Positions 1 through 12,900 are shown, counted from the first letter of the stretch. The stretch is 64,000 nucleotides of DNA from Desulfobulbaceae bacterium (GCA_026988015.1 JALSMA010000011.1:1-64000); one strand, 5' to 3'. Numbers and translations: made by a program. Notes: generated by a model from the sequence alone, not told the origin.

Positions 1-356
1 ATCGAACCCATCTATTTTCTGGATTGAGTTTGCCGCCAAATGGAAGATGAAAACCCTCCAGGCTGAGTTGTCGGTTACTTTTGTAACGTATCATGTGCAA
101 GCCTTTTGTTGAGTATTGCTCTGTATGTTTGCATATAGTACTACCTTTTTAAAGTCTTTACTCTACAATAACAGTTGGTTGTGACTTTTTGAGGACAATC
201 TATATACTGTATTTCAGTATCCTACCCAATCCCACCCTGCAAAGTAGTCACGAATCAAGAAATAGTTATGACAAACCTATCAGATTCCAGAATTGCTGGA
301 TGTGAGTTTATCCCGCATTATAGCCACTGTCGACTGTAGAAACACTGGAACCAGAG
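1..356. other. Array-distal flank without recognisable genes
   Basis: No reading frame of convincing length or codon character is seen on either strand. The stretch lies on the trailer (leader-distal) side of the CRISPR array. No degenerate repeat copies were found in it. A small hairpin GTTAC-TTTT-GTAAC occurs near 85-98 and has no obvious role. Confidence 0.5.
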
Positions 357-522
357 GTTTCAATCCACGCCCCCGCGAGGGGGGCGACCAGGTCAGATCA
401 GGCAGATGCTCTCTGTTTTAGGGGTTTCAATCCACGCCCCCGCGAGGGGGGCGACCCATGCGCAACACCTTTGCTGATGCCCTTTCTGCGGTTTCAATCC
501 ACGCCCCCGCGAGGGGGGCGAC
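357..522 (-). CRISPR. Type I-C CRISPR array, three repeats and two spacers
   Basis: Three identical 32-bp repeats lie at 357-388, 424-455 and 491-522, separated by two unrelated 35-bp spacers (389-423 and 456-490). Read on the minus strand the repeat begins GTCGCCCCCC and ends in ATTGAAAC, the typical type I-C pattern. Transcription is therefore expected from right to left, with the leader at 523-704 next to cas2. The inner part of each repeat is a GC-rich palindrome, the stem that Cas5c cleaves beside. All three repeats are perfect, including the leader-distal one, which is usually the most degenerate. The array is very short, which fits a locus in which cas2 is interrupted. Confidence 0.97.
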
Positions 523-704
523 TGTCAAGTTGCAGCGTTACACTATACTTGAGCAAAACATACTCTTTCCGCGAATCGACGTTTCCCGGAGCTGAGTACT
601 AATAAAAATCATTTTAAAAATACTACATTCCCCTTACTTCTCAACATGTAAAACAATATTGCGAGCCTCCAGCAATTCAATGGCTGCTAGAGGTTCGCAA
701 AACT
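523..704 (-). promoter_or_regulatory. CRISPR leader
   Basis: This 182-bp non-coding stretch lies between the cas2 stop codon and the first repeat, exactly where a type I-C leader is expected. It is AT-rich and has no open reading frame of note. A TATAGT hexamer on the minus strand (547-542) lies about 20 bp before the first repeat and could be a -10 element, but no good -35 was seen. Confidence 0.7.
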
Positions 705-968
705 TCAGATAATTAAAAGTCCATCCATATCAAGTGACTGTTTTGCCCCAACATGCTCCACTTTATGTTTCCAGTTAGAACCAAGAAAATAAAAGCGGAG
801 GCTATCAAGATCCGGATCCATTTCATTTATGAGTTGTTGCCGGAAAACAGTCCATTGAGCCGGATCAACAATACATTCAAACACGGAGAACTGTACACGC
901 TGTCCATGGTTACAACAAGCTTTAGCAATACGCCGCAACCTTCTTGGTCCACCAGGCTTGCTGGTTTT
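705..968 (-). pseudogene. cas2: cas2, 3' part (split by element insertion)
   Basis: Reading from 968 leftward gives KTSKPGGPRRLRRIAKACC, then the conserved type I-C Cas2 body with GQRVQFSVFEC, SLRFYFLGSNW and VEHVGAKQS up to the stop at 705-707. This is the small metal-dependent nuclease-fold protein that forms the Cas1-Cas2 integrase. The first nine codons are missing here; the frame continues upstream into element DNA (residues IADV). The missing start lies at 11219-11245, just after cas1. Joined at the shared dinucleotide, the two parts give 291 nt, or 96 codons plus stop, the usual family length. The open frame that begins at an ATG at 938 would lack the first beta strand and catalytic Asp region, so a functional product is unlikely while the element is integrated. 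Confidence 0.95.
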
Positions 969-991
969 AACGTCGGCGATTGGTTTTATAA
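944..991. other. attL, left junction of the integrative element
   Basis: The cas2 body ends and element DNA begins here. The element half is AACGTCGGCGA (969-979) followed by TTGGTTTTATAA (980-991). The latter is the exact reverse complement of TTATAAAACCAA at the right end (11194-11205). The inferred crossover dinucleotide is TT at 967-968, AA in the cas2 sense. GT, GA and AC are also shared between the junctions, but only AA makes both attP half-sites the same length (11 bp to the arms). Confidence 0.8.
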
Positions 992-1156
992 TTTGTCTTT
1001 TCGGGTTCGCGCTGATATATAGTCTGGAAAATTAGACAGTTACGTTTGTTTTTTTTAAAATGAGTGCACCCAATTGCTATAGCTAAAAAAATATTATATC
1101 AAAAGTAATCGTATTGTTGAGGAAAAAATTTATATACTTTCCTTGCTTATGTGGGG

Positions 1157-1267
1157 TTACGTTGTTGGCCGCCGATGAAAGTTGATAATATTCTTTGGGT
1201 AACCATCAAAGTCAGCGTAGCATAAGATTCCACCGGGGCCAGACTTGTAACAAATGTAGTCTTGCAT
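1157..1267 (-). CDS. Possible 36-aa small protein
   Basis: A short minus-strand frame reads MQDYICYKSGPGGILCYADF followed by DGYPKNIINFHRRPTT and a stop. Its composition looks protein-like, with balanced residues and Cys, Tyr and Gly-Pro turns. It could also be the tail of a decayed gene. No Shine-Dalgarno sequence is seen before the ATG. The motif DFDGYP recalls the DLDGYP near the end of the neighbouring Cas1, but eight residues are too few to claim homology. Confidence 0.25.
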   Translation of the reverse strand: MQDYICYKSGPGGILCYADFDGYPKNIINFHRRPTT

Positions 1268-1332
1268 AGGCACAAGATGCAGATGACAGACAAATTGATT
1301 ATTTCCTGTGTGAGGAACTTTGTTTTTTCATG

Positions 1333-1370
1333 TTAAGAACCACCGTATTTTGCCCCCTATGTGACGAATA
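1333..1370 (+). repeat. Short repeat, copy 1 (second copy 3251-3290)
   Basis: The 13-mer TATTTTGCCCCCT occurs at 1346-1358 and again at 3264-3276, with similar flanks (AAGAACCACCG here, GAGAACCGCCT there, and TGACG on the right in both). At the second site it joins a truncated HsdR_N-like frame to the 3' end of the GIY-YIG gene, so it may mark a recombination joint between cargo modules. Confidence 0.5.
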
Positions 1371-1589
1371 GGAAATGGGGTGTAGGATAGGGTGTTCTTT
1401 CGAGTTCTGCGGAGAGAAGTGTGTATTGTTCCCGGCTATTGAATGCAGGATGTAAGAAACTGGCTCCCAATCGAATTCTTTTTGAGATTGCATAGAAAGG
1501 CAGTATAGTAAAAACAGTATGATATTGAGAAGTTTAACCAACAACCAGAGGGCTGTATGACTTAACGACTGAATAACGATTTTTAAATA

Positions 1590-1781
1590 TAGAACGCTTT
1601 TTGCGTTTCGTAGAATCATCCTATCCGAAAACCGCCAAATTTTTAACTCAAGGATTGATACCAACGAAACTGCGCCCCGGTTGGGCGTGGCTTTCGTTCG
1701 TTCTCCTTGGGTGGGTGCTTGGCGGTACCTCGGATAGGGTTCGGCGTTAGTTGCGCCCATTTTTTTCGGGAGCGATCAAGT
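1590..1781 (+). promoter_or_regulatory. Structured 5' leader, family alpha copy 1
   Basis: This stretch is an inverted, diverged copy of 4151-4340, and each copy lies directly upstream of a gene in the same relative orientation. Possible stems: CCTATCCG (1620-1627) with CGGATAGG (1731-1738); ACCGCCAA (1631-1638) with TTGGCGGT (1719-1726); a GCGCCC/GGGCGT hairpin (1672-1688); and TGGGTGC (1712-1718) with GCGCCCA (1753-1759). The last would be a pseudoknot or an alternative pairing and is followed by seven Ts, like an intrinsic terminator. The paired positions change together in the other copy. The Shine-Dalgarno GGGAG and the ATG of the zinc-ribbon gene follow at once, which suggests attenuation. 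Confidence 0.65.
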
Positions 1782-2750
1782 ATGGAGTGTCCCAAGTGCG
1801 GGTATCAAAGAACAGAAGAAGATCAAGACAAACCAAAATCCTATTGCCCTTCTTGCGGGGTTATCTATGAAAAGGCTCAATCGGCTCACCTCAAGAAAGT
1901 AGCCGTTCAACAGAAAGCGAAAGAAGAGGAACTGCAACGCCGGGAGCAGGAACTCAAGAAAAGGGAAGCGACCCTTCAAGGTAAAAACTCCCCGGCCATA
2001 GAAAAAGGTACACAGTCCGACACGCCTATCACGCCGCCCCCAGTAAAACAAAAGACCAAACCACCCGCTACATACCAGAAACCAACAAAGGTCGGAGCGT
2101 TTACCCGATACTTTGTTTTTGTACTTGTTGGAATTCCGTGTCTTTTTGCCTTGGGCGGAGCTGTTGAGGATGGTTTTTCCGAAAACTGGGTCACAGTCTT
2201 TATCACCGGTTCTCTATTCTTTTTCCTCTTGATTCAATTACCTCCTATCCAAAATGCAATAAACAAAAACGAAGCAAAATCTTTGGCCTCTGGAAGAGTC
2301 GTTGAAGCTCCGACCACGAAGGGATATTTGTCCGGGTTGTTTGGATTTGGTATTGTCGCTGTGGTCGCCTTTTTCTGCCTATCCTTCCTCAAAACCTGTT
2401 TTGCTCCTATGGCGATTGATATTGAAAACGGGATAGCCAAACGGGAAGTTATAGTCTCCCCCCTATACAACGTCGGAGTCGTAGCGGATACCATCAATAA
2501 CCAAGCGTGCAAAATAGTAGAAGAAAACTCGGGTATAAAAGGTGTTGAGCTTACCGTGTATCTGGACGGGGAGTCTGTGAGCGATAAGTACGGAAATAAG
2601 GCCGATACAAACCTGTATATGGGTACCGTGAAAATAGATGATCTTGCAGAGGTACGAAAATATAAATCCTGCTCTGACTATTCTTATGCAATGAGATCGA
2701 AAATTATTGCGAAGGTAAATACTATGAAATTTGCAGGTTCACTCAAGTAG
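1782..2750 (+). CDS. Zinc-ribbon, coiled-coil membrane protein of unknown function
   Basis: The 322-residue product opens with a zinc ribbon (CPKCGY near residues 3-8 and CPSCGV near 24-29). A highly charged coiled-coil stretch (about 40-75) and a Pro/Thr/Lys linker follow. Hydrophobic segments lie near residues 110-132, 138-155 and 188-212, and a soluble C-terminal domain of about 110 residues ends the protein. ATG 1782 was chosen over an upstream ATG at 1707 because GGGAG precedes it and the ribbon starts at once; the upstream codons overlap the structured leader. Such architectures are often sensors or anchors, but the family is not recognised. A terminator hairpin follows the gene. Confidence 0.75.
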   Translation: MECPKCGYQRTEEDQDKPKSYCPSCGVIYEKAQSAHLKKVAVQQKAKEEELQRREQELKKREATLQGKNSPAIEKGTQSDTPITPPPVKQKTKPPATYQKPTKVGAFTRYFVFVLVGIPCLFALGGAVEDGFSENWVTVFITGSLFFFLLIQLPPIQNAINKNEAKSLASGRVVEAPTTKGYLSGLFGFGIVAVVAFFCLSFLKTCFAPMAIDIENGIAKREVIVSPLYNVGVVADTINNQACKIVEENSGIKGVELTVYLDGESVSDKYGNKADTNLYMGTVKIDDLAEVRKYKSCSDYSYAMRSKIIAKVNTMKFAGSLK

Positions 2751-2763
2751 GCTTGTTCTTGTC

Positions 2764-2807
2764 CGGCGGGAAGATAACAGTTCCAATCCTTCCCGCCGAT
2801 TCTTTTT
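2764..2807 (+). terminator. Rho-independent terminator after the zinc-ribbon gene
   Basis: A 10-bp stem, CGGCGGGAAG (2764-2773) with CTTCCCGCCG (2789-2798), is followed by a T-rich run. It lies 13 bp past the stop codon of the zinc-ribbon gene. Confidence 0.85.
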
Positions 2808-2910
2808 CCCTTCCCTTCGAGACCAATCCCTCTTAAATAAATTTCCCGCCCGGAAGACTCCTTGCAAGTCCACCCGGAAAGCTTTAGTATTGTCGGATAT
2901 ATGTCTATAT

Positions 2911-2935
2911 TCTCGGGGGTGTTCTCTGCCCTTTA
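2911..2935 (+). repeat. Short motif gamma, copy 1 (second copy 7071-7094)
   Basis: TCTCGGGGGTGTTCTCTGCC here resembles TTCGGGGGTATTTCGTGCCC at 7071-7090. The first copy lies about 25 bp upstream of the HsdR_N-like fragment, the second downstream of the 5856 gene. The role is unknown and the match is short. Confidence 0.35.
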
Positions 2936-2956
2936 ATTGTTCCGTTTCTTGATACT

Positions 2957-3280
2957 ATGACCAAAGATAAACAGAAAGAAAAAGAGCTGCCGACCGTTGA
3001 AGAGATTTTACGGGGTACGTCTCACGCTCTTACCATTTTTAAATCCGATGCCTCGGATAGTTTGGAGTTTTTCTTTAAACGAGGGAAGCCTTATCTAAAA
3101 TGTTATGCAAGCGGGAAAGACCGCCCAGCCAAGCCAGAAGAGATCGTTCGGCAATTGTACCTCAGAATGTTGATGGATGATTACGGCTACCCGGCGGAAA
3201 GGATTGCTATAGAGAAACCGGTTCAATTTGGTTCGGCGGTGCAAAGGGTCTTGAGAACCGCCTTATTTTGCCCCCTCTGA
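2957..3280 (+). pseudogene. Truncated HsdR_N-like fragment (type I restriction/methylase N-terminus)
   Basis: The first 95 residues match the pattern of the N-terminal domain of type I restriction-modification-type proteins: a short basic start, then KPYLKCYASGKDRPAKPEEI, VRQLYLRMLMDDYGYPAERI and IEKPVQFGSAVQR. In intact members the continuation carries the nuclease or anchoring core (a KRADIV-like segment and later E-x-K). Here the frame runs after VQR into unrelated residues VLRTALFCPL and stops. The break coincides with the short repeat at 3251-3290, and the frame overlaps the 3' end of the convergent GIY-YIG gene by 18 bp. It is most likely the remnant of a restriction cargo gene replaced by recombination. 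Confidence 0.65.
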
Positions 3281-3290
3281 CGCATTCAAC
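3251..3290 (+). repeat. Short repeat, copy 2 (first copy 1333-1370)
   Basis: Shares the exact 13-mer TATTTTGCCCCCT (3264-3276) and similar flanks with 1333-1370. It lies at the junction between the truncated HsdR_N-like frame and the last codons of the GIY-YIG gene. Confidence 0.5.
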
Positions 3291-4150
3291 CCAAAGGCTC
3301 TTGTACCCAATTTTTTCTTATAGAGATTTTCATAGTTGAGAACCTCTTTGTTGGTAAGCGTTTTCGGTAGGGTTTGCAAAATTGTAAACTGAAAATGTTT
3401 TGCAGCGGTTCGGTCTTTTTTCAATATCTTTTTGAGTAATTTGTTCCCGCCATGACCTTTTGTTGCAGAATATTCTTTCCAGCGGCCTAAAATTCCTTTT
3501 TTTCCGTAAGCAGAACCAACATATTGCTTTCCACTCTCGGTATCCATAATCAAGTAAATACCGGCGACGGAAGATAACATTGTGTGCCACTCCCGGTTTG
3601 CTTCGGGATTGTTTACAATAGTCTTCAATTCATCGTAACGAATTACAAAATCAAGAAAGCCGGGGAATTCTTTTACATATCCTGTCGGTAGAATTTCAGT
3701 TACTTCTTTATCTTTTAATTCTCCTGTACCGTTTTTTCTTACCCATTGACTCCACGCTAATGCACCCTTACCCCAATCAACGACAACTCTATTTTTTAGA
3801 TCATCGAAATCGTCAACTTCTTCCAGGTCGTAAAATACACTTGTATCACTAACTATATTAAAATCTTGGTAAATAAAATCCTTTGGAAGAGAGACTTCTG
3901 ATGCCGATCGCTGCTTAAGGACTTTATAGACGCCGTAGAAGAGAGCCTTCATGTTTTCTTGCCCTATAAATACGACAATATAATTGCAATCCTTGAAAAT
4001 TGGCTTTTCTTGATACCGTTGGTAAGTCTCAAGTTGGTTCGCTCGTATCAATTCAGTGACATCATACCTTTTGTCTTGATGTCGAACATATTTTATTTTT
4101 GCGTTTAAGTTTAAGCCTCTATTTTTTAATAACTCAAGAATCCCTATCAT
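3263..4150 (-). CDS. GIY-YIG nuclease-domain protein
   Basis: The 295-residue protein has an unfamiliar N-terminal region of about 190 residues and a C-terminal GIY-YIG domain: AGIYLIMDTESGKQYVGSAY (GIY followed by YVG), then GILGRWKEY with the conserved Arg, HGGN, and a Glu in NYENLYKKKLGTRAFGLN. GIY-YIG domains cut DNA in homing, repair, restriction and mobile-element proteins. This arrangement resembles stand-alone phage- or island-associated GIY-YIG proteins. The start at 4150 (MIGILELL) is preferred over upstream ATGs because those overlap the structured leader. The leader at 4151-4340 matches the one before the zinc-ribbon gene, so the two are probably regulated alike. Confidence 0.8.
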   Translation of the reverse strand: MIGILELLKNRGLNLNAKIKYVRHQDKRYDVTELIRANQLETYQRYQEKPIFKDCNYIVVFIGQENMKALFYGVYKVLKQRSASEVSLPKDFIYQDFNIVSDTSVFYDLEEVDDFDDLKNRVVVDWGKGALAWSQWVRKNGTGELKDKEVTEILPTGYVKEFPGFLDFVIRYDELKTIVNNPEANREWHTMLSSVAGIYLIMDTESGKQYVGSAYGKKGILGRWKEYSATKGHGGNKLLKKILKKDRTAAKHFQFTILQTLPKTLTNKEVLNYENLYKKKLGTRAFGLNASEGAK

Positions 4151-4340
4151 ATTTTCCCGAATAAAATGGGTGCGACTAATGCATGCCCATCCAAGGTATC
4201 GCCAAACACCCATCCAGAAACAAACAGAAGACGCACCCAACTCGGGGTGCGTTTCCGCAAGACTCGGTTTCTGGATAAAAAATTGGCGATTTTTGGACAG
4301 AACGACTCTACGAAATACGCAAAGATATGTTTATTTGTTA
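4151..4340 (-). promoter_or_regulatory. Structured 5' leader, family alpha copy 2
   Basis: An inverted, diverged copy of 1590-1781, directly upstream of the GIY-YIG gene. In plus-strand coordinates the stems are: 4293-4298 with 4189-4194; TTGGCGAT (4283-4290) with ATCGCCAA (4198-4205); a perfect 8-bp hairpin ACGCACCC (4231-4238) with GGGTGCGT (4245-4252); and CACCCAT (4207-4213) with ATGGGTG (4166-4172). Compared with copy 1 several pairs change on both sides (a C-G pair in one copy, T-A in the other), which supports a real RNA structure. A T-rich run and GGGAAAAT precede the ATG. Confidence 0.65.
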
Positions 4341-4678
4341 TTTGCTGTTTAAGTCATAAGTTGCTCGCACTGATTATTGGTTAAAAACCCTTTCTTTATC
4401 TTTCGGATTAGACAACAGCCGTGGGAAATTGTCAAATAGATAAAAGGGGTTGCTTATAGCTATTAAGAAGGAATTTTATCAGATCGGAAAACAGCTAATA
4501 TTTCAATCCTTTGCGCTCCTACGCTCTTGAGAGCTTTCGCACATTCATTACCAGTACAAGCAACATTTCCTCTTACTGCGAAAAATATTTCTTTAGATTT
4601 ATTTTAAAAATATCTCGACTTCCCCCACTGGTTCAGGGTATAAGAGTCTTATAAACTTTTCATAACGGTGAGGGATAC
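4341..4678. other. Non-coding stretch before the small serine recombinase
   Basis: No gene recognised. The stretch separates the GIY-YIG leader from the small recombinase and presumably holds divergent promoters; no strong promoter match was found. GGTGAGGG lies just before the recombinase ATG. Confidence 0.4.
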
Positions 4679-5404
4679 ATGGACGCATACGGATATTTAC
4701 GGGTAAGCACCAAGGGGCAAATTGAGAAAGACGGATTCAAGAGACAGCGGGAAACAATTTCCAAATTCGCTACCGAATCCAATATCAACATTCCCCGGTA
4801 CTACGAAGAACAGGGAGTATCAGGAACCAAGGGAGAAGACGACCGCCCCGCCTTGCAAGAAATGATTACCGACATTTTATCAAACGGAGTTAATACCGTT
4901 ATTGTAGAACGTCTCGACCGGTTGGCCCGTGAGTACGTGGTGCAGGAACAACTCCTCATCTATCTTGCAAGTAAGGGTATAGTCCTTCTCAACGCTTCCA
5001 CCGGGGAAAATATTACAGAGGCTATCAATTCCGACCCGATGAAGAAGGCCATTATCCAGATTCAAGGGGTATTCTCGGAACTGGAAAAATCCTTATTGGT
5101 AAAGAGGCTCAAGAAAGCCCGGCAACGGAAGAAAGAGGAAACCGGGAAATGTGAGGGAACAAAGGGGTGGAATGAGATCGACCCGGAACGGAAAGTTGAA
5201 GTCTTGAAACTGGTTCGCCGGTTACGTCGGAAACCAAGAGGTGGAGGAAGACAAAAAAGTTATCAAGAAGTATCCGACCATCTCAATAGAAAAGGGATAA
5301 AAACCCTTCGGGGCGGTGAGTGGAGTCCTCAACTGGTCAGGGCTTTTCATAAAGCAGGAGCGACCAAAGCCAAAAAATCAAACACACAAGAGAGGAAACT
5401 ATGA
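4679..5404 (+). CDS. Small serine recombinase (resolvase/invertase family)
   Basis: The 241-residue protein has an N-terminal serine recombinase catalytic domain. The nucleophile Ser lies in YLRVSTKGQ near residue 10. Also visible are EEQGVSGTKGEDDRPALQEM, VIVERLDRLAR with the catalytic Arg motif, and the long helix SELEKSLLVKRLKKAR. A short C-terminal DNA-binding region follows (SYQEVSDHLNRKGIKTLRGG), similar to the start of the Recombinase domain. It is far shorter than the large integrase at the other end of the element and lacks a zinc ribbon and coiled coil. It could resolve multimers, invert a segment or act in excision. It overlaps the next gene by 4 bp (ATGA), so the two are translationally coupled. 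Confidence 0.9.
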   Translation: MDAYGYLRVSTKGQIEKDGFKRQRETISKFATESNINIPRYYEEQGVSGTKGEDDRPALQEMITDILSNGVNTVIVERLDRLAREYVVQEQLLIYLASKGIVLLNASTGENITEAINSDPMKKAIIQIQGVFSELEKSLLVKRLKKARQRKKEETGKCEGTKGWNEIDPERKVEVLKLVRRLRRKPRGGGRQKSYQEVSDHLNRKGIKTLRGGEWSPQLVRAFHKAGATKAKKSNTQERKL

Positions 5405-5700
5405 AACTTGTACACATGACCGCCAGTAAAATGAACGGCAGCTATTACATAATGGTACTGGACGAAGACGCCGAAGAGTATATTTACATGGTGGTGGTTC
5501 CGGGCGAACCGGACAATATCATGGCCAAGTACCCAGTATCAGAATACAAAGACCGGGAACACTTCGCCGGGGTAATCGGAAAGTTTATGCCCTACACGTG
5601 GATATTGAGCGAAGAAGCTGAAATTGAAATTGAAGAACCGAGTCTGCCGGAATTGAGGCGGGCGGAAGCTATCTTGAAAAAGAGGAATAAATCTCTTTAA
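5401..5700 (+). CDS. 99-aa protein of unknown function, coupled to the small recombinase
   Basis: The product is acidic and compact (ASKMNGSYYIMVLDEDAEEY, later SEEAEIEIEEPSLPELRR), with a predicted beta-rich first half and a helical end. No family is recognised. The start overlaps the recombinase stop (ATGA) and AGAGGAAAC serves as Shine-Dalgarno. The size, acidity and coupling make it a candidate recombination directionality or accessory factor; this is inference only. Confidence 0.7.
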   Translation: MKLVHMTASKMNGSYYIMVLDEDAEEYIYMVVVPGEPDNIMAKYPVSEYKDREHFAGVIGKFMPYTWILSEEAEIEIEEPSLPELRRAEAILKKRNKSL

Positions 5701-5759
5701 GCCTCACGCCTTGCTTTTGTAACTCGAAATTGAATATAACTTGAGGGGGGTTAAAGATA

Positions 5760-5855
5760 TTGGACGGATAGGTTTAGCGACCGAAAAAGAAGCGTTCTGG
5801 GCTTCCCTGCCGTCCGATTTTGTTTTTCCAGAGGTCACTACAGAGGTGATAGAAA
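5760..5855 (+). promoter_or_regulatory. Structured 5' leader, family beta copy 1
   Basis: Matches 7940-8034 in sequence and layout. An outer stem GGACGG (5762-5767) with CCGTCC (5810-5815) encloses a hairpin GAAGC (5789-5793) with GCTTC (5801-5805). A T-rich run follows, then a second hairpin TCAC (5835-5838) with GTGA (5846-5849) that holds the Shine-Dalgarno GAGG next to its 3' arm. The second copy has GGGCGG/CCGCCC and CCGC/GCGG at the same places, so both stems are preserved by paired changes. This looks like a terminator plus an SD-sequestering hairpin, a possible autoregulated leader. Confidence 0.65.
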
Positions 5856-7046
5856 ATGGCGAGAAAAGCGCGAATTGCTGCTGATACAAAGAAGAAAAAA
5901 GAATCAGAAGAGAAGCAATCCAAAATAGAGGGTGATAAGGGAGTCGGCCGGGGGGGAAAAAGAAAGAGGGCGGTCAAGGGCAGACTTACAGAAACCATAA
6001 AAAAGAAAACAATAAAAGGTGTTGAGGAAGGAAAAGGCCGGGGAAGAAAAAAGAAGTTTTTGCAAGGTGTAACAGTTAGAGAGTTTCTGAGTTTTTATGA
6101 ACAGTTTTATGAATTAACTTATGGAGAAGAACCTGAATGGAGGTGGCAAATAAATAAATATAGAGATGATGAACGGATGGTGACTACCGTTATATCTTTA
6201 GCGAAAAACGATGTTGAAGACGATTTAATTGAATTGCTTGAAAATGAATTTTTTGAAACGGTAGAATATTGGTGCCGTGTAAGCCATAAAATTACCCTTG
6301 AATTACGGGCTACAAATCTCTTTGATTATGATCAGATACCCGATGTTTGGAAGAAAATTCTTGCGGAGAATATGAGTACGTTTAGATCATGGTATTACCG
6401 ACTATATCGCCTCACGTATATTGAAGAAGAAATGAGGGTTCAAGAAGAAAGGTTTCTTCTTAATTATACAAAAAAAGTTCAAGACAATGATGATAAAGAA
6501 ATAACCGTAGAAGATATTGACCTGCTTGTTGAACGTGCCGCTTTAAAGGAAATGAAAGAAATCCTTGGCAGTCGGCAAAAGGCGATAGATAGACGATTGA
6601 AGAAGAAAGATAAAGTCTGGCCTGTTGACTATAAGTGGTGGATAAATTACCCGGACGCAAGCCTCACCAGCCGTCGGTTTAGATATTTTGAGCCATTGTT
6701 GATCGAACTATACAAGCTCATTTTACCTTACCCGAAGTCCAAAGAATTGAATGTTAAGCATAGGCTTGAACCGCCTGAAAAGAATAGGATTTGGGCTGTT
6801 ATAGATTTGTCGAGAATTCAACACGTACTGAACGTAAACGGGATACCGCCAAAGACTTATGTGAAATACAGAAGTGGCTTTTTTAAATGTGGTATTTTGA
6901 AAAAATTGAAAAAAACTAAAGATGGGCCTGCATTGATAGCGATTGGTACTTATCGAGACTTAGAGAAACATCCAACGGCCTCCCCTCAACTTAGTCGATT
7001 TTTAAAAAGCGATACCAGAGGGATGATTTCTCGCTTTAAACTTTAA
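5856..7046 (+). CDS. Basic protein with a possible C-terminal DNA-binding domain
   Basis: The 396-residue protein starts with about 70 residues very rich in Lys, Arg and Gly (KRKRAVKGR, GRGRKKKFLQG), then a helical middle region with aromatic motifs (FLSFYEQFYELTY, WYYRLYRLTYIEEEMR). The C-terminal region (about 310-396) resembles a winged helix (LSRIQHVLNVNGI, PKTYVKYRSGFFKCGILKKL) and ends in SRFKL. The gene at 8035 has the same outline (basic start, C-terminal wHTH, FKLK end) and the same leader type, so the two may be distant paralogues. Replication or partition control is possible. Shine-Dalgarno GAGGTGAT (5843-5850) sets the start. Confidence 0.65.
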   Translation: MARKARIAADTKKKKESEEKQSKIEGDKGVGRGGKRKRAVKGRLTETIKKKTIKGVEEGKGRGRKKKFLQGVTVREFLSFYEQFYELTYGEEPEWRWQINKYRDDERMVTTVISLAKNDVEDDLIELLENEFFETVEYWCRVSHKITLELRATNLFDYDQIPDVWKKILAENMSTFRSWYYRLYRLTYIEEEMRVQEERFLLNYTKKVQDNDDKEITVEDIDLLVERAALKEMKEILGSRQKAIDRRLKKKDKVWPVDYKWWINYPDASLTSRRFRYFEPLLIELYKLILPYPKSKELNVKHRLEPPEKNRIWAVIDLSRIQHVLNVNGIPPKTYVKYRSGFFKCGILKKLKKTKDGPALIAIGTYRDLEKHPTASPQLSRFLKSDTRGMISRFKL

Positions 7047-7050
7047 GGAG

Positions 7051-7084
7051 GAAATACCCTTATTAAAATTTTCGGGGGTATTTC
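7051..7084 (+). terminator. Hairpin after the 5856 gene
   Basis: GAAATACCC (7051-7059) pairs with GGGTATTTC (7076-7084) in a 9-bp stem just past the stop codon. The T-run after it is weak (CCCCTTTTC at 7088-7096), so termination is likely but unproven. Confidence 0.55.
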
Positions 7085-7295
7085 GTGCCCCTTTTCTGAG
7101 GGTGCTTGAAGGAGATTATATTTGGATTAAACAAGACGAAATCCCCTTACTTCTGGCTTGGAAGATCTCTATTTTATAAGCAAATACAATCAGTTAGTGT
7201 GCTTATTGTAAAGTTGAAGACGAGGGTTATATAACTAATAAAAAACTACCTTTAACTATATAAATACTTTTAATATCGAATACCGTAGGCGGCTT
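7085..7295. other. Non-coding gap before the 148-aa gene
   Basis: An AT-rich stretch without a gene; it probably contains the promoter of the following gene. AGGCGGCTT lies before its ATG as a weak ribosome-binding site. Confidence 0.4.
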
Positions 7296-7742
7296 ATGTC
7301 GAAGAATACAGAACTACAAAAACGATTCGAGAACCATATCCCATTGGCGATATACCCCTTCGGGATAGGAAGCAATACCGGCCCAAGGGTAATAGCGGAA
7401 GGGTTTGTATATCCCGAGGGCGTGTTCTTTTTTGATATTGGGTGGAACAACCCTATGGCCGGAACCGGTACGGATCACTTTGTTGAAGGTAAGATTGAAG
7501 GCCCATTTCCTGATTGTGAGGAAACAATGTATTGGAAGGTCGGGAAGCACGCTACCATCCACGAGATACCGGAAGATGATTACAGTTCCAGTTTCGCGAA
7601 CGAGTTGTCCGTTGGAAAAAACAATCGTGAGCGGGCGGAGAGATATCAAGGGGATAAATACAAAAGTAGAAACCGGGCTCAGGGAATAGCCGACCGGTTT
7701 ATTGATGAGCATAGGAGATACCACCAAAGTGAGGAAGAGTGA
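7296..7742 (+). CDS. 148-aa protein of unknown function
   Basis: No family recognised. The first 100 residues look like a compact beta-rich domain (IYPFGIGSNTGPRVIAEGFV, VFFFDIGWNNPMAGTGTDHF, EETMYWKVGKHATIHEIPED) and the last 40 are charged and helical (NRERAERYQGDKYKSRNRAQ). There is no signal peptide or membrane segment. It stands alone between the two leader-controlled basic-protein genes. Codon usage resembles its element neighbours. Confidence 0.6.
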   Translation: MSKNTELQKRFENHIPLAIYPFGIGSNTGPRVIAEGFVYPEGVFFFDIGWNNPMAGTGTDHFVEGKIEGPFPDCEETMYWKVGKHATIHEIPEDDYSSSFANELSVGKNNRERAERYQGDKYKSRNRAQGIADRFIDEHRRYHQSEEE

Positions 7743-7939
7743 TTTGATGGTCTGATTATTTCTGGCTTCGGGTGGTAGGGAGGCCGCCGGGTAGTAAGGC
7801 TACAGAGGGTGTTAAATTTGCCCGTAGAATGGTTTTTATGTTCTGTGCTGTAGGGAAGCTTGTAACGAGTATAAAATAACGATAGCGAGTCAAAAATCGA
7901 GGCGGGAACATTACCCCGCCGTATCAAGTAAAAGCAAGT

Positions 7940-8034
7940 TTGGGCGGATAGGCTCATTACCGAAAAGGAAGCCTTCCGAACTTCCCTTCCGCCCATTTTT
8001 TCTTTCGGAGTATCCGCTATCGGAGGCGGTGAAT
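7940..8034 (+). promoter_or_regulatory. Structured 5' leader, family beta copy 2
   Basis: The outer stem GGGCGG (7942-7947) with CCGCCC (7989-7994) encloses GGAAG (7967-7971) with CTTCC (7981-7985). ATTTTTTCTTT follows, then CCGC (8014-8017) with GCGG (8026-8029), whose loop carries the Shine-Dalgarno GGAGG (8022-8026). Equivalent stems with paired changes occur at 5760-5855. The CCGCCCATTTTTT end is also close to the GCGCCCATTTTTTT end of the alpha leader before 1782, so the two leader families may share a 3' part. Confidence 0.65.
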
Positions 8035-9036
8035 ATGACCAAGCGAAAACGAGCCAATAAAAGCCAGTTCAAAAAAACATCAGACTATAAGAAGAAAAAA
8101 CAATCCAATACAAACGGACTTGAGCAGTACCTCAGCATCATAGACGATCTTTACGGCAAGCTCCTCAATACCGCCAAGTATCCCGATATATCAAAAACAG
8201 ATGAAGAGGAAATTCTTACAATAGCGAGGTGGTGTGATTTCGATGACTTCGAGAAATCAAAGCTCTGGAGCGGTGACGATATTCCCGAGGACACGCCTCA
8301 AATCCTCAAAGACCGGATCATCAACACTTACCAATCTTGGGGTGATTGGATTCAGGGTTCTATCTATACAGACCGTTATCTTGAATTCGTCGAATCCCTC
8401 CACCCGGCTACTCTCAATTCCCTTCCCAAGATCGTCCCAGAGTTTCAAACCCCAGGTCAAATCCGAGTATCCATTGATCTGGAAACGGCCTATGACTGTG
8501 CCCCTGAAAAGTATTCTAAATATGGTTGTTTGGATATTGGGCAGTTAAAGGAAGTAGAACCTGCACGATACAGAAAGTTGCTTAATGATCGGATTTTCTA
8601 CCATAAAAGGATGTTCGATTCTCTTAACAAGGAAAAGGAACGGGTGGATGTGTGGCCTCGTAGCTGGATGCAGGAAAAAGCTATACAGGAAAACCTTTCT
8701 CAGAGAAAGCACCTTATTCCAATTCTCAACTATATTACCAATCATGCGTTTCTACGGACAGACCCCCATACCAAGGAGTATGGATCATTTTATAAAGACG
8801 GAAAAGAAGTTGATTATATCGTTGCAAAAATCAACCGAAACAAAATAGCTGATTTTCTGGGGGTGTCCCCGGATACTGTTTCCCGGTATATCCGGGCTAT
8901 GAAAAATGCCGGGTTTATCCAACCATTAAAGAATCCTTATTACTCCTTGGGGTACTGGAATAAATATAGTCGGGTTTTCTTCTTGAAAAGTTCTATTGAG
9001 AACAGAAAAAAACTTAGAGGGTTCAAGTTAAAATAA
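8035..9036 (+). CDS. Putative winged-helix DNA-binding (Rep-like) protein
   Basis: The 333-residue protein starts with a Lys-rich segment, has a helical middle, and ends with a clear helix-turn-helix: INRNKIADFLGVSPDTVSRY then IRAMKNAGFIQPL, near residues 262-295, as in winged-helix replication initiators and transcription factors. No HUH or primase motif is seen. ATG 8035 was chosen because GGAGG lies 8 nt before it; a GTG at 8029 in the same frame is too close. Directly downstream lies an AT-rich cluster of TTAGAAT heptamers, which would suit an initiator binding its own origin or an autoregulator binding operators. Confidence 0.65.
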   Translation: MTKRKRANKSQFKKTSDYKKKKQSNTNGLEQYLSIIDDLYGKLLNTAKYPDISKTDEEEILTIARWCDFDDFEKSKLWSGDDIPEDTPQILKDRIINTYQSWGDWIQGSIYTDRYLEFVESLHPATLNSLPKIVPEFQTPGQIRVSIDLETAYDCAPEKYSKYGCLDIGQLKEVEPARYRKLLNDRIFYHKRMFDSLNKEKERVDVWPRSWMQEKAIQENLSQRKHLIPILNYITNHAFLRTDPHTKEYGSFYKDGKEVDYIVAKINRNKIADFLGVSPDTVSRYIRAMKNAGFIQPLKNPYYSLGYWNKYSRVFFLKSSIENRKKLRGFKLK

Positions 9037-9097
9037 AAATTAGAATATTCTAATTTTAAAATACCCCCATTCTAAAAATCCGGCATTTTTTTAGAAT
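9036..9097. repeat. Iteron-like cluster of TTAGAAT heptamers
   Basis: Contains a perfect 22-bp palindrome (9036-9057, centre TAGAATATTCTA). Four heptamers TTAGAAT/ATTCTAA occur in 60 bp, at 9040-9046, 9047-9053, 9069-9075 and 9091-9097, in alternating orientation. The cluster follows the stop codon of the wHTH gene and is strongly AT-rich. It may be an origin or an operator. Confidence 0.6.
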
Positions 9098-9472
9098 ATG
9101 ATGTTTTTGGAATCAATGGGTTTACTTATTGTCTTTCTGTAAATTTTAACAAATTCAAGTGGGTGCTGATTTCCAGATTCTATTAGAGTCCACTCTCGTG
9201 TACCCGTTAAGGGATCAAGAATTGTTACCTGTTATTTGGAGATACGTTTTATTTGAATAGTAAGTAATAAAAATGGAAGTGAAAGAGAACATAGCGGGTT
9301 TTCCCCGAAGGGGAAAACTCTAAGCCCTTTCCAAAGAAAGTTATAGAATTTTTCCTTCGGAAAAACCCGCTGTTTGTTTTTTGAAAGACTTTTGCTCTTC
9401 TGGAAACAACATCCAGTAAAAAAATATATGATGTTTCGACCGGTAGAAAGCCAATAGGAGAAAAAATACATT
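9098..9472. other. Non-coding region before the large recombinase
   Basis: No gene recognised. The stretch holds the pair of inverted hairpins at 9293-9371 and presumably the promoter of the recombinase. ATAGGAG (9455-9461) lies 11 nt before its ATG. Confidence 0.5.
9293..9371. repeat. Pair of inverted hairpins with a common outer stem
   Basis: AGCGGGTTTT (9293-9302) is complementary to AAAACCCGCT (9362-9371). Inside, GTTTTCCCC-GAA-GGGGAAAAC (9298-9318) and TTTTTCC-TTC-GGAAAAA (9349-9365) form their own hairpins that compete with the outer stem. The unit AGCGGGTTTT..CC..GAAGG..AAAA is thus present twice in inverted orientation. It may be a bidirectional terminator, a single-strand origin or a regulatory switch. 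Confidence 0.6.
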
Positions 9473-11284
9473 ATGAAACAAGCCGTCGGATATGTACGGG
9501 TGTCCACCCACCATCAAGTCAAGGAAGGGGAATCACTCACCACCCAAAGAAAAGCTCTTACGGATTACGCCAAATGGAACAAATATGAGCTTGTAGAAAT
9601 ATACGCTGATGAGGGTATTTCTGGTGGTTCGGTAGAAAAACGTCCCGGCCTTCAAGCCCTGTTACGGGATGCTCAAAATCAAGGCTTTTCTTTTGTCCTC
9701 GTTCACCGTTTATCCCGGTTGGGTAGGAACGCCCGTGAACTCCTTAACAACGTCCAATTGCTCAAAGAGGCCGGGGTAAGCGTTATGTTCTTGAAAGAGA
9801 ATATCGACCTGTCCAATGCCTACGGAAACTTTATGTTGACGATGCTTGCGGCTATGGCGGAATTGGAAAAGGATATTTCCGGGGAATCCTCTGTAGAAAA
9901 TAAGATTGCATTGGCAAAGAAAGGGGTTCCGTCCATTGGTAAGTATCCTTTTGGCCGCCGGTTCGACCGAAAAACCGGGGAATGGTACCTTGAACCGCCT
10001 GATATAAAAGAGGTGATAAACGATATAGCAGACCGGTATTTGGACGGTGAAGGGTTGAAAGACATTGCTGATACAATTGACCCTTCCTATCAATTGTCCT
10101 ACTCTAATATTTTGAGAGTCCTGCGTGATCGATGCGGAGGTACTTGGGAGTTAAAATTTAAGAAAGAGAACGAGCCAATTGTTTTTGAGGTTCCCCGACT
10201 ATTGAGTGAGAGAAAAATAGAGGCGATCAAAAAAAGGTTAGAATTCAATCGTTCTTACACCAAAGCAGGAAATAAAGAGAGTTTGTTACTACTTAGCGGT
10301 TTCGTTCGCTGTATGGCTTGTGGTAAGGCTTTAACCGCTCAATGCCAGAAGGCAAAGAGATCAAAAGGAAAGACATATACTTACCATTTTTACAGACATC
10401 CCGGTGGTAAGAGAGAAAAGTGCCGAAGCCTAAATTCGATAAGAAGTCACAGATTGGAAGAAGCTGTGTTAACTGCTATCTGGGATAATTTGAGTGATGA
10501 GGATAGCGGTTTGGAAAAGGCTTGGGCAGACAATTATCCAGACCAAAACAAGATTGATGAATTGATAAAAAGGATTCAGATAAACCGGGGGAAATTGATA
10601 AAAGCGAAAGCTGACCGAGATAAGTTGGTTGATGCAGTGTTGACCGGTGTTCTATCTGAGGATGCAATCAAAAGGAAAAGTGATATCCTGTCTTGTGAGA
10701 TTGGCCGACTTACAGACAAACTGAAAGGAGATGAAGAAAGACTATCTCGAACCCCTTCCCCTGAAGAGATCGGACTGGAACAAGAAAAACTTAAAATGGC
10801 CTTTCAGGATTATTTTTACTCACGAGAACGGTTTGATTCTATGAGCTTCGAAGAAAAACGAGCCTTGATGTTCTCGATATTTGATGGAAAAGATGAGGAT
10901 GGTGATTTCTTGGGAGTTTATGTGAAGAGGATAAGCCCCGCAAGAAAGCAACCTGTCCGATACGAATTTTATATCAACGCCCGTTTTTTTGCTGGACACA
11001 TTGATTCTGAGCCGGAAACTGGTTCCGGCTCTCCACCTCAAGGAACACCGGGCAATAGCTCCCCTCCGAACTCCACAAAGAAACAAAGTAAAAAATCTAC
11101 GTTATTACATGGGTTAGCAGGTTGCAGAGGTGTAGTCCTCCCTGAACACCGACCTACCCCCAGATATATCAGTACACAACGCAAGAGAAATAGTTATAAA
11201 ACCAAAACCGGTCGTCTTCACATCATAGCTGACAAGAACAAGCATTTTTTTTCACCTCCAGATCATAGGCGGATAACCATCTAA
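9473..11284 (+). CDS. Large serine recombinase (element integrase)
   Basis: The 603-residue protein has a catalytic domain with the nucleophile Ser in YVRVSTHHQ (near residue 11), DEGISGGSVEKRPGLQALL, VLVHRLSRLGRNARELL and AELEKDISGESS. A Recombinase domain (about 155-260) follows, then a zinc ribbon with CMACG and a Cys in KREKC (about 280-325), a coiled coil (about 360-430) and a C-terminal tail. It integrates and excises the element at attP/attB. Residues after 582 are encoded by host DNA antisense to cas2 and cas1, because the frame runs through attR. In the excised circle the frame would continue at 969 and end at 1022, giving a different 17-residue tail and a 599-residue protein. The Shine-Dalgarno is AGGAG. 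Confidence 0.95.
   Translation: MKQAVGYVRVSTHHQVKEGESLTTQRKALTDYAKWNKYELVEIYADEGISGGSVEKRPGLQALLRDAQNQGFSFVLVHRLSRLGRNARELLNNVQLLKEAGVSVMFLKENIDLSNAYGNFMLTMLAAMAELEKDISGESSVENKIALAKKGVPSIGKYPFGRRFDRKTGEWYLEPPDIKEVINDIADRYLDGEGLKDIADTIDPSYQLSYSNILRVLRDRCGGTWELKFKKENEPIVFEVPRLLSERKIEAIKKRLEFNRSYTKAGNKESLLLLSGFVRCMACGKALTAQCQKAKRSKGKTYTYHFYRHPGGKREKCRSLNSIRSHRLEEAVLTAIWDNLSDEDSGLEKAWADNYPDQNKIDELIKRIQINRGKLIKAKADRDKLVDAVLTGVLSEDAIKRKSDILSCEIGRLTDKLKGDEERLSRTPSPEEIGLEQEKLKMAFQDYFYSRERFDSMSFEEKRALMFSIFDGKDEDGDFLGVYVKRISPARKQPVRYEFYINARFFAGHIDSEPETGSGSPPQGTPGNSSPPNSTKKQSKKSTLLHGLAGCRGVVLPEHRPTPRYISTQRKRNSYKTKTGRLHIIADKNKHFFSPPDHRRITI
11194..11241. other. attR, right junction of the integrative element
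   Basis: The element half is TTATAAAACCAA (11194-11205) followed by AACCGGTCGTC (11206-11216). The inferred core TT is at 11217-11218, and the first nine codons of cas2 begin at 11219 (minus strand). The 12-bp arm is the exact inverse of 980-991 at the left end. Confidence 0.8.
11217..11245 (-). pseudogene. cas2: cas2, 5' part (nine codons)
   Basis: On the minus strand, six bases after the cas1 stop codon (11252-11254), an ATG at 11245-11243 opens MLVLVSYDV, the hallmark first strand of type I-C Cas2 with its conserved Tyr-Asp. The frame then enters element DNA (KTTGFGFITISLAL). The rest of the gene is at 705-968. Together they restore 96 codons with the natural YDVKTSKPGG sequence. Confidence 0.95.
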
Positions 11285-12280
11285 ATCACCGCGGAGAAAT
11301 CGTGCCAACAACAAGGCCTGGGTATGAAAAAGTAACCCTATTAGCATTTTCTCCTCAATGAATGGATGAACCAAAACATCCTGTTTTTTCTTCTGGTAAA
11401 CCGTCAATACAAGCTTTCGAGCATCATCACTCATCCTCACTCCCCCACCATCACTCTTCTTAAAGTCCCTACCCTTCACTTGACCTAGGTTGACGAGCGA
11501 AAGGACAATACGATCAGCCCAAGGCCTGAACTCCTCCATCATATCCAATGCTAACCCAAACCTGCCGGGCCGATCCCGATGTAAAAAGCCCACCCCAGGA
11601 TCTAGACCGACACTCTCCAAAGCTGAACGCACATCATTCATCAGCATCATATACACGAAAGAGAGCAGACAATTAATCAGGTCAAGGGGTGGTCGCCTGG
11701 ATCTTCTTTTAAAAAAGAAATCACCTTTATTGGTAAGAATAAGCTCATTAAAGACTTGGAAATAGACATGACTGGCATCACCTTCAACTCCACGAACAGT
11801 ATCAAGATCAAGATCCCTTTTCAGGCACTCCAAACTATTTCCAAGGCGAGAGTTTGCCTTACTAAGTAAGTTCCGATCTACACAATCACCATGATCCCGG
11901 ATAACACGTTTGAGCAGATGGCGACTGTTGGCTATCTTTCCCGTGACAAAAAAGGCAGCAAGCTTTGCAGAAAAACGGCGGTCATCAGCAAAACGATACT
12001 GCTGACGACGAAGCAGAACATTACCGGAGACTGGCCCCTGAACACACGCTAAGAATTTACCATATTCCGTCAAAAAACTGAAAGTGATACCTTTGTCACC
12101 ACAAAACCCCAAAAGGAACGGACTGGCACCCACATTACCAAAACAAACTATTGACTCCAAAGTGTGAATAGGCAGGCGGAGACGAACCTTCTTGTCAATC
12201 TTCACCACTACGGTCTCTCCCTCTTTTGCCAAATAAGCTCCCTGGGTAGTGACAAATAAAGTGTTTAAATGTTTTTTCAT
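11252..12280 (-). CDS. cas1: Cas1, CRISPR integrase subunit (type I-C)
   Basis: The 342-residue protein matches the length of type I-C Cas1. It forms the Cas1-Cas2 complex that integrates spacers. The N-terminal beta domain (LNTLFVTTQGAYLAKEGETV) is followed by the helical catalytic domain with Glu in GVEGDASHVYF, His in VGFLHRDRPGRFGLALDMME and the acidic pair in the same segment. The C-terminus is DLDGYPPMIWR. The start overlaps cas4 by 4 bp (ATGA). cas2 should follow after 6 bp but is interrupted. The protein itself looks intact, so adaptation is blocked at Cas2 and not here. Confidence 0.97.
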   Translation of the reverse strand: MKKHLNTLFVTTQGAYLAKEGETVVVKIDKKVRLRLPIHTLESIVCFGNVGASPFLLGFCGDKGITFSFLTEYGKFLACVQGPVSGNVLLRRQQYRFADDRRFSAKLAAFFVTGKIANSRHLLKRVIRDHGDCVDRNLLSKANSRLGNSLECLKRDLDLDTVRGVEGDASHVYFQVFNELILTNKGDFFFKRRSRRPPLDLINCLLSFVYMMLMNDVRSALESVGLDPGVGFLHRDRPGRFGLALDMMEEFRPWADRIVLSLVNLGQVKGRDFKKSDGGGVRMSDDARKLVLTVYQKKKQDVLVHPFIEEKMLIGLLFHTQALLLARFLRGDLDGYPPMIWR

Positions 12281-12900
12281 TGGAGAACTCTGTCTAAATA
12301 GGCTGATACCGTTCTTTTCTTTCCAATACTCCTAGGAAGGCAAATAGACTCAAAGGAACAACTCTGACATTTTTTACTATATTGCGGCTTTGGAGTAAAC
12401 TTCAGGTCAAATAATTTATGTAGACGCTGGGCCGCATCCTGTGTTATCTGCCGCAACGAATCATCGAATACGACTTCCAGCCGCCGATGATTTTTCCCGT
12501 AAAATAACGCACCTTCTCTAACATCAACAGACATCATTTCTTCAAGGCAGAGTGCCTGGGCACATAGCTGGACACGATCGGAATCGTCACTTTTCGGTTT
12601 CCCTCTCTTGTATTCCACCGGATAAGGTCGCCAACCATGAGATTCCTTGTAAAATTCCACAACATCGGCCCGTCCGTAAATCCCTAACTCAAATGAGCGC
12701 AGGGGCAGGTCATACTCGATCCTTTTCGTTCTCCGAGATTCCCGACCCGCTTTATGCACCCGTTCATGTAGCAACCGCCCTTCTGCCGTGAGCCTATTTT
12801 CAAGCCATAATTGTTCCACATGGATCAAAGCACATTGGCGAGGGCAAAACAAAAGATGCTGGAGGGCGGAGAGCATAAGGAGATCATCTTCGTGATACAT
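12277..12900 (-). CDS. cas4: Cas4, RecB-like nuclease for spacer processing
   Basis: The 207-residue protein has the Cas4 layout: a first Cys in FCPRQCALIHVEQLW, then GRADVVEF and PVEYKRGKPK (the RecB-type D-x-EYK core), QLCAQALCLEE, and the C-terminal Fe-S cysteines CQSCSFESIC. Cas4 selects and trims PAM-containing prespacers for Cas1-Cas2. The gene starts three bases after the RhuM-Fic stop codon and overlaps cas1, so it is very likely transcribed with both. Confidence 0.96.
   Translation of the reverse strand: MYHEDDLLMLSALQHLLFCPRQCALIHVEQLWLENRLTAEGRLLHERVHKAGRESRRTKRIEYDLPLRSFELGIYGRADVVEFYKESHGWRPYPVEYKRGKPKSDDSDRVQLCAQALCLEEMMSVDVREGALFYGKNHRRLEVVFDDSLRQITQDAAQRLHKLFDLKFTPKPQYSKKCQSCSFESICLPRSIGKKRTVSAYLDRVLQ

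Follow-up and report, generated by a model that had tools for sequence, protein, structure and literature searches.

A family of structured leaders, probably transcription attenuators, upstream of unrelated genes in Bacteroidota and Desulfobacterota

The window analysed here, a stretch of 64,000 nucleotides from a Desulfobulbaceae bacterium, carries two copies of a structured element, each of which is likely to attenuate transcription in cis from the 5' leader of the gene that follows. The ON state would be a rod and the OFF state a terminator helix formed by its segments C and D. Both copies belong to a family in which all the pairings, the orientation relative to the downstream gene and the U-run are established by the comparisons described below. 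Judged by its sequences, the family is probably a new class of transcription-attenuating leader, either an orphan riboswitch or a protein-sensed switch, and a riboswitch would be our first choice.

The two leader copies and their surroundings

Copy 1 (about 1603-1766, plus strand) and copy 2 (about 4321-4160, minus strand) are homologous, structured and inverted with respect to each other. The regions 1540-1790 (plus) and 4345-4140 (minus) can be aligned with MAFFT over about 230 columns, and a repeat finder reports the inverted pair 1585-1645/4276-4336, which is 74% alike. The T-run of each copy lies 9-15 nt 5' of the ATG of a gene, at 1782 (plus) and 4150 (minus). Two inverted copies, each immediately upstream of a gene, are what the original prediction had described, and both are present where it placed them. 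When the genome is searched by blastn with copy 1 as the query, copy 2 is not recovered, and the likeness of the two copies is therefore largely structural. Both folds are more stable than dinucleotide shuffles of the same sequence (z = -8.3 for copy 1 and -7.7 for copy 2), and none of 200 shuffles equalled either of them. The sequence TATGACTTAA, perhaps a promoter -10 region, is preserved 5' of both copies, at 1556-1565 and 4349-4358.

The features of copy 1 are as follows.

1603-1622, plus strand: segment A, the 5' segment, complementary to segment B at 1652-1671 (GTTTCGT/ACGAAAC, TCC/GGA); stem search, prefix folds and swap tests
1618-1628, plus strand: left strand of P1, partner 1730-1740; stem search and covariation
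1631-1638, plus strand: left strand of P2, ACCGCCAA, partner 1719-1726, TTGGCGGT; stem search and covariation
1646-1681, plus strand: segment B, with the left strands of P3 (1646-1654) and P4 (1664-1677) and the apical loop
1682-1712, plus strand: segment C, with the right strands of P4 (1683-1697) and P3 (1704-1712); 1682-1692 pairs alternatively with D
1714-1729, plus strand: GGT...ACC stem, 1714-1716/1727-1729, around the right strand of P2 (1719-1726); covaries from GGU/ACC to GGC/GCC
1730-1740, plus strand: right strand of P1; stem search and covariation
1749-1766, plus strand: segment D (1749-1759, AGTTGCGCCCA) and T-run (1760-1766), a putative terminator with 1682-1692
1782-2750, plus strand: cargo gene of copy 1, 322 aa, N-terminal zinc ribbon (Pfam PF08271, E = 1.1e-4, below the curated cut-off) and hydrophobic stretches

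Copy 2 has the corresponding features on the opposite strand.

4293-4301, minus strand: left strand of P1, TCTGTCCAA, partner 4194-4186; stem search
4283-4290, minus strand: left strand of P2, ATCGCCAA, partner 4205-4198, TTGGCGAT; stem search
4267-4279, minus strand: left strand of P3 (segment B), partner 4221-4209; stem search
4231-4252, minus strand: apical hairpin P4 (4252-4245/4238-4231); 4239-4232 pairs alternatively with D
4195-4210, minus strand: GGT...ACC stem around the right strand of P2; coordinate check
4160-4174, minus strand: segment D, CGCACCCA (4174-4167), and T-rich run (4166-4160), a putative terminator
3263-4150, minus strand: cargo gene of copy 2, 295 aa, C-terminal GIY-YIG domain (Pfam PF01541, E = 1.5e-5, above the cut-off)

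Of the stems drawn in the original prediction, P2 (ACCGCCAA/TTGGCGGT in copy 1 versus ATCGCCAA/TTGGCGAT in copy 2) is a true compensatory pair, and P1, drawn as CCTATCCG/CGGATAGG versus GTCCAA/TTGGAT, is correct. Both copies could form the third stem, TGGGTGC/GCGCCCA, but this pairing is not one that the family conserves. The stem employs the conserved GGGUGC next to the right strand of P2 (P2'), whereas the 3' segment of other members matches segment C and not GGGUGC. In the family as a whole, the 3' segment pairs instead with the 3' arm of the apical hairpin, and this C:D pairing joins 1682-1692 to 1749-1759 in copy 1 (11 bp) and 4239-4232 to 4174-4167 in copy 2 (8 bp, all Watson-Crick).

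Both copies lie in a mobile element of about 10 kb (about 985-11240), which is inserted in cas2 of a type I-C-like CRISPR locus. The start of Cas2, read by eye, comes from the right junction (11205-11245, minus strand) and the remainder from the left (705-985). The element encodes a large serine recombinase (9473-11284, plus strand). A direct repeat of 29 bp, 86% alike, is found at the 3' end of the GIY-YIG gene (3251-3279) and upstream of copy 1 (1333-1361), and is possibly the end of a mobile unit. A fragment of an HSDR_N_2 nuclease gene (PF13588; 2957-3280, plus strand) looks as if it had been truncated by an insertion, its match stopping where the GIY-YIG unit ends. Matches to the int-alpA RNA (RF02996) occur at 5761-5834 and 7941-8009 (plus strand), with 35.5 and 39.5 bits at a cut-off of 35.8, just 5' of the genes 5856-7046 and 8029-9036; the product of the latter has an HTH domain. 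Like the leader, int-alpA RNA is present twice in this element, 5' of genes, but it is shorter (71 nt), differs in sequence and position, and has no match at the leader copies.

Size, spread and conserved pairing of the family

A covariance model (R1) built from the two window copies alone found one copy each in 7 of 143 further genomes from the order of the window's bacterium, with E values of 4e-21 to 1e-3. An exact pattern of the P2 core (ACCGCCAA, 60-90 nucleotides of any kind, GTGCTTGGCGGTAC) matched at least 119 loci in genome contigs, where we estimate that about one match would arise by chance. The matches listed come mostly from Bacteroidota (Bacteroidales, Flavobacteria, Cytophagia), and also from Desulfobacterota, Lentisphaeria and Ignavibacteria. 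Two of the 119 listed, L103 and L129, are apparent chance matches within coding sequence and were dropped, and the membership of L072 is doubtful. A second model (R2), built from 64 diverse members and run on genomes that had not been chosen by the pattern, detected the leader in 39 of the 296 Bacteroidota genomes sampled (E up to 1e-4), among them the pattern-found centre genome G274, and in 11 of 243 genomes close to that of the window, the latter included. The pattern and the second model together yield at least 110 loci beyond the same-order copies, mostly in Bacteroidota, and known carrier genomes have from 1 to 11 copies. Among the carriers are culturable ones such as Prevotella communis, a Flavobacterium and Desulfonema magnum. 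One locus, L084, has two tandem leaders about 130 nt apart (7491-7623 and 7754-7911, minus strand), which resembles tandem riboswitches.

Seven further members were found in viral contigs. Neither a blastn search of plasmids and phages with copy 1 nor the first exact pattern applied to viral contigs gave a match. Five matches to the pattern GGGTGCTTGGCGGTACC in viral contigs include no clear member, and the five matches to a looser viral pattern (L215-L219) are not members.

If the original prediction were wrong, a covariance search was expected to find only the two window copies; it found a large family with covarying pairing. The family, named 'alpha' in that prediction, is indeed structured, but it is not restricted to this element, since it spans phyla. 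Comparison with Rfam 15 (4227 families), which had also been proposed, placed nothing on either copy in scans of the window 1-64000 at the gathering threshold and of 1-12500 at E up to 5, and nothing on the leader in 14 other loci, each scanned whole. We found no description of the leader family in the literature consulted. In a human-microbiome survey, HTH_XRE genes were a common neighbour of 5'-UTR candidates (15 candidates; Fremin and Bhatt 2021, PMC8040213), and many members of the present family also precede small XRE genes; we found no such family described in the text of that survey, and overlap with its motifs is possible. The leader family is large and apparently uncatalogued, and occurs mainly in Bacteroidota and Desulfobacterota.

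The order of segments across members is A - P1 - P2 - B - C - P2' - P1' - D - U-run, and comparison of members demonstrates that the A:B, B:C and C:D pairings are all kept by compensatory change. G-U pairs are tolerated in the helices. In P1, seven of the eight pairs have changes on both sides in 27-41 of 64 sequences. In a model-only set of 40 sequences, including 29 from Bacteroidota loci that the pattern had not selected, 96.2% of the cells are paired, both-sided changes occur at every pair, and the covariation score is 0.772, versus 0.08-0.11 for slid partners. The P2 variants of this set have matched strands: ACCGCCAA/TTGGCGGT, ACTGGTA/TACCAGT, ACTGCGAA/TTCGCAGT and CCTAGGAA/TTCCTAGG. The P2 sequence is nearly constant within subgroups.

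The nucleotides around P2 are largely fixed, with GAAAAC 5' and AAUUU 3' of the left strand, and GGU 5' and UACC 3' of P2'. Such a conserved core combined with variable P1, P3 and P4 is a riboswitch-like feature. P2' is framed by GGU/ACC in 90 of 104 sequences and by GGC/GCC in seven (Fisher p = 6e-10, kinship ignored), and the outer pair of the frame is reversed (C/G) once. The loop between GGU and ACC is usually 10 nt long with a P2 of 8 bp, or 8 nt with a P2 of 7 bp. Covariation is also seen on the left strand, at the base pair outside AAA/UUU (G-C, p = 3e-6). This arrangement suggests that P2 is a loop-loop helix between two small hairpins, situated at the junction with P1 and P3.

A four-segment switch

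The specificity of the pairings was examined by a swap test, in which the pairing of a segment with its own partner is compared with that of the same segment from other members. In 62 nonredundant members, P1 (z = -2.97), B with C (-3.37), A with B (-2.15) and C with D (-2.26) prefer their own partners, and the control combinations A with C (+0.24) and B with D (+0.12) do not. In 15 nonredundant model-only members the values are -4.47, -3.84, -2.86 and -1.97, respectively, with controls of +0.14 and +0.04. A pairing of A with D is absent from both sets (z = 0.03 and -0.05). An antiterminator mutually exclusive with the terminator helix is present, as B:C and C:D share strand C and both are sequence-specific.

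The folds agree with these tests. When the transcript is folded only as far as the apical loop, A:B is present in 63 of 64 cases, and P2 is part of the best fold of the full leader in 62 of 64. For the C:D helix the medians are 19 pairs and -23 kcal/mol, and the helix ends no more than 3 nt from the T-run in 61 of 64 members; four of the 29 model-only members have no clear U-run. Taken together, the swap tests and the folds therefore indicate that the leader can form either A:B and C:D (the terminator) or B:C with its P1/P2 clamp (the rod). In the absence of a ligand the computed energy favours the rod by a median of 12.9 kcal/mol (30.6 and 11.4 in the two window copies), and the OFF state thus requires kinetics or a further factor.

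The leader probably works with four mutually exclusive RNA segments in the manner of a trp attenuator, dispensing with a leader peptide. Segment A would pair with B once B is transcribed. C would then oust A and pair with B. The base of the resulting B:C rod would be clamped by P1 together with the P2 core, which is nearly invariant and would form a loop-loop helix within a GGY/RCC frame. Segment D could take C from the rod, and the GC-rich C:D helix followed by the U-run would constitute an intrinsic terminator. The rod would permit read-through, and A:B together with C:D would stop transcription. A small molecule or a protein would probably be sensed at the conserved P1/P2 junction, where its binding would most likely favour the rod and make the leader an ON switch, a sign that we put at somewhat better than even. 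The attenuator or riboswitch logic of the original prediction is borne out by A:B, B:C, C:D and the U-run in the 62-member and the independent sets, from which we infer termination, the role of the junction as receptor, the sign of control and a ligand or protein as the controlling agent.

Cargo genes, alternative explanations and significance

In 84 of 97 loci (p = 7e-14), and in 53 of 60 nonredundant ones, the leader and the nearest downstream gene share a strand; the upstream gene has only a mild strand bias. In another set of loci the downstream gene has the orientation of the leader in 32 cases and the reverse orientation in five; the five include window copy 2 (L148), whose true same-strand gene had been removed by the ORF filter. 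In some members of the Cytophagia type the next gene is 130-400 nt away. The Bacteroidota -7 motif (TAnnTTTG) peaks 95-105 nt 5' of P2. Since this peak precedes segment A, the stems should be transcribed.

The cargo is diverse. About 30 of 111 products are small XRE-type proteins (by eye), and a domain survey of 109 proteins found BspA-type leucine-rich repeats in 10 and TonB receptors in seven, along with several zinc-ribbon proteins similar to the cargo of copy 1, PAS proteins, Lcl_C and a type III methyltransferase. The survey revealed no common pathway, and the diversity is too great to name a ligand. A defence theme was considered and rejected: PADLOC gave isolated matches in the 109 proteins (mainly the type III methyltransferase and a UzuA-like protein), with no trend. 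Four Flavobacterium-type loci (L043, L054, L090, L105) have as cargo a protein of 56 aa that resembles, by eye, the C-terminal domain of the RNA polymerase alpha subunit, and integrase-like and excisionase-like genes are nearby. A Cytophagia-type subgroup (L187, L191, L194, L203, L204) has a common extended upstream sequence, TTGCGA...TTCAAATAAAATA...TGAAGCATTCGC, and its next same-strand gene, of about 400 aa, is about 250-300 nt away; its products probably include TonB-plug proteins.

The leader might be a site of protein-dependent antitermination or attenuation, recognised by a NusG paralogue such as RfaH, UpxY or LoaP, or by an RNA-binding regulator, and not a small-molecule riboswitch. 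We regard this as possible but rather unlikely, and hold the same doubtful view of its corollary, that the P1/P2 core is the binding site of the protein and the expression platform is unchanged. Large surface proteins (BspA-type repeats, TonB receptors) among the cargo are in its favour, as is P2 being nearly fixed within subgroups like a recognised site. The frequent P2' sequence GGCGGTA resembles the core of the RfaH ops site and provides no more than a lead in this direction; it is common, but it is not family-wide, being replaced elsewhere by TACCAGTA, TTCGCAGTA or TTCCTAGGTA with matching left strands. The conserved GGCGGTAG core of the ops (JUMPstart) site was not found, P2' varying with a compensating left strand, and a link to ops and RfaH was rejected, as the family does not conserve P2'. 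A free-standing small RNA, to which the downstream gene is incidental, would likewise consist of a rod with its own terminator, and a same-strand gene is lacking in the vicinity of a few members. This explanation is improbable in view of the same-strand downstream genes and the far weaker bias upstream, and a conserved alternative terminator competing with the rod would hardly be sensible for a simple small RNA.

The order of the A/B/C/D pairings is identical to that of trp-type attenuators (1:2, 2:3, 3:4), which also have four competing segments, an antiterminator opposed to a terminator, and a U-run before the gene. Government by translation of a leader peptide is nevertheless highly unlikely: no conserved reading frame was seen by eye in the 5' part of the leaders, the conserved part is the P1/P2 junction and not a run of codons, and the P1/P2 clamp with its loop-loop helix, the unrelated cargo and the phylum-wide spread are further differences. 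It is equally far-fetched that the element is folded DNA (a recombination or transposition site, or a single-strand promoter or origin) lying beside mobile-element cargo by chance. Both window copies are inside an integrated element, Flavobacterium loci are near integrase or mobile genes, and seven copies are in viral contigs; however, G-U pairs, a near-universal U-run after D, a one-sided gene orientation and three competing helices are not expected of DNA sites, and no boundary repeat linked to the leader was found. The preferred reading, a riboswitch, shares with transcriptional ON riboswitches that employ kissing loops or pseudoknots (e.g., cobalamin, guanidine-II) a conserved core, a variable terminator platform and loop-loop pairing, but no Rfam riboswitch model matches the leader and its cargo points to no pathway.

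The leader appears to be present in about one eighth of the sampled Bacteroidota species, in up to 11 copies per genome, and is absent from Rfam. It is conceivable, though we hold this tentatively, that the family is a phylum-crossing class of riboswitches for a signalling compound, whose loop-loop junction reads a shared signal and switches on unrelated cargo. If so, one signal would turn on surface repeats, TonB receptors, small DNA-binding proteins and nucleases, many of them on mobile elements. As the pairing pattern predicts base changes that would lock the leader ON or OFF, an immediate test in laboratory strains is possible. The same switch precedes unrelated genes, so that identification of the signal would expose a shared control circuit, which would cover gut and marine Bacteroidota and relatives of sulfate reducers.
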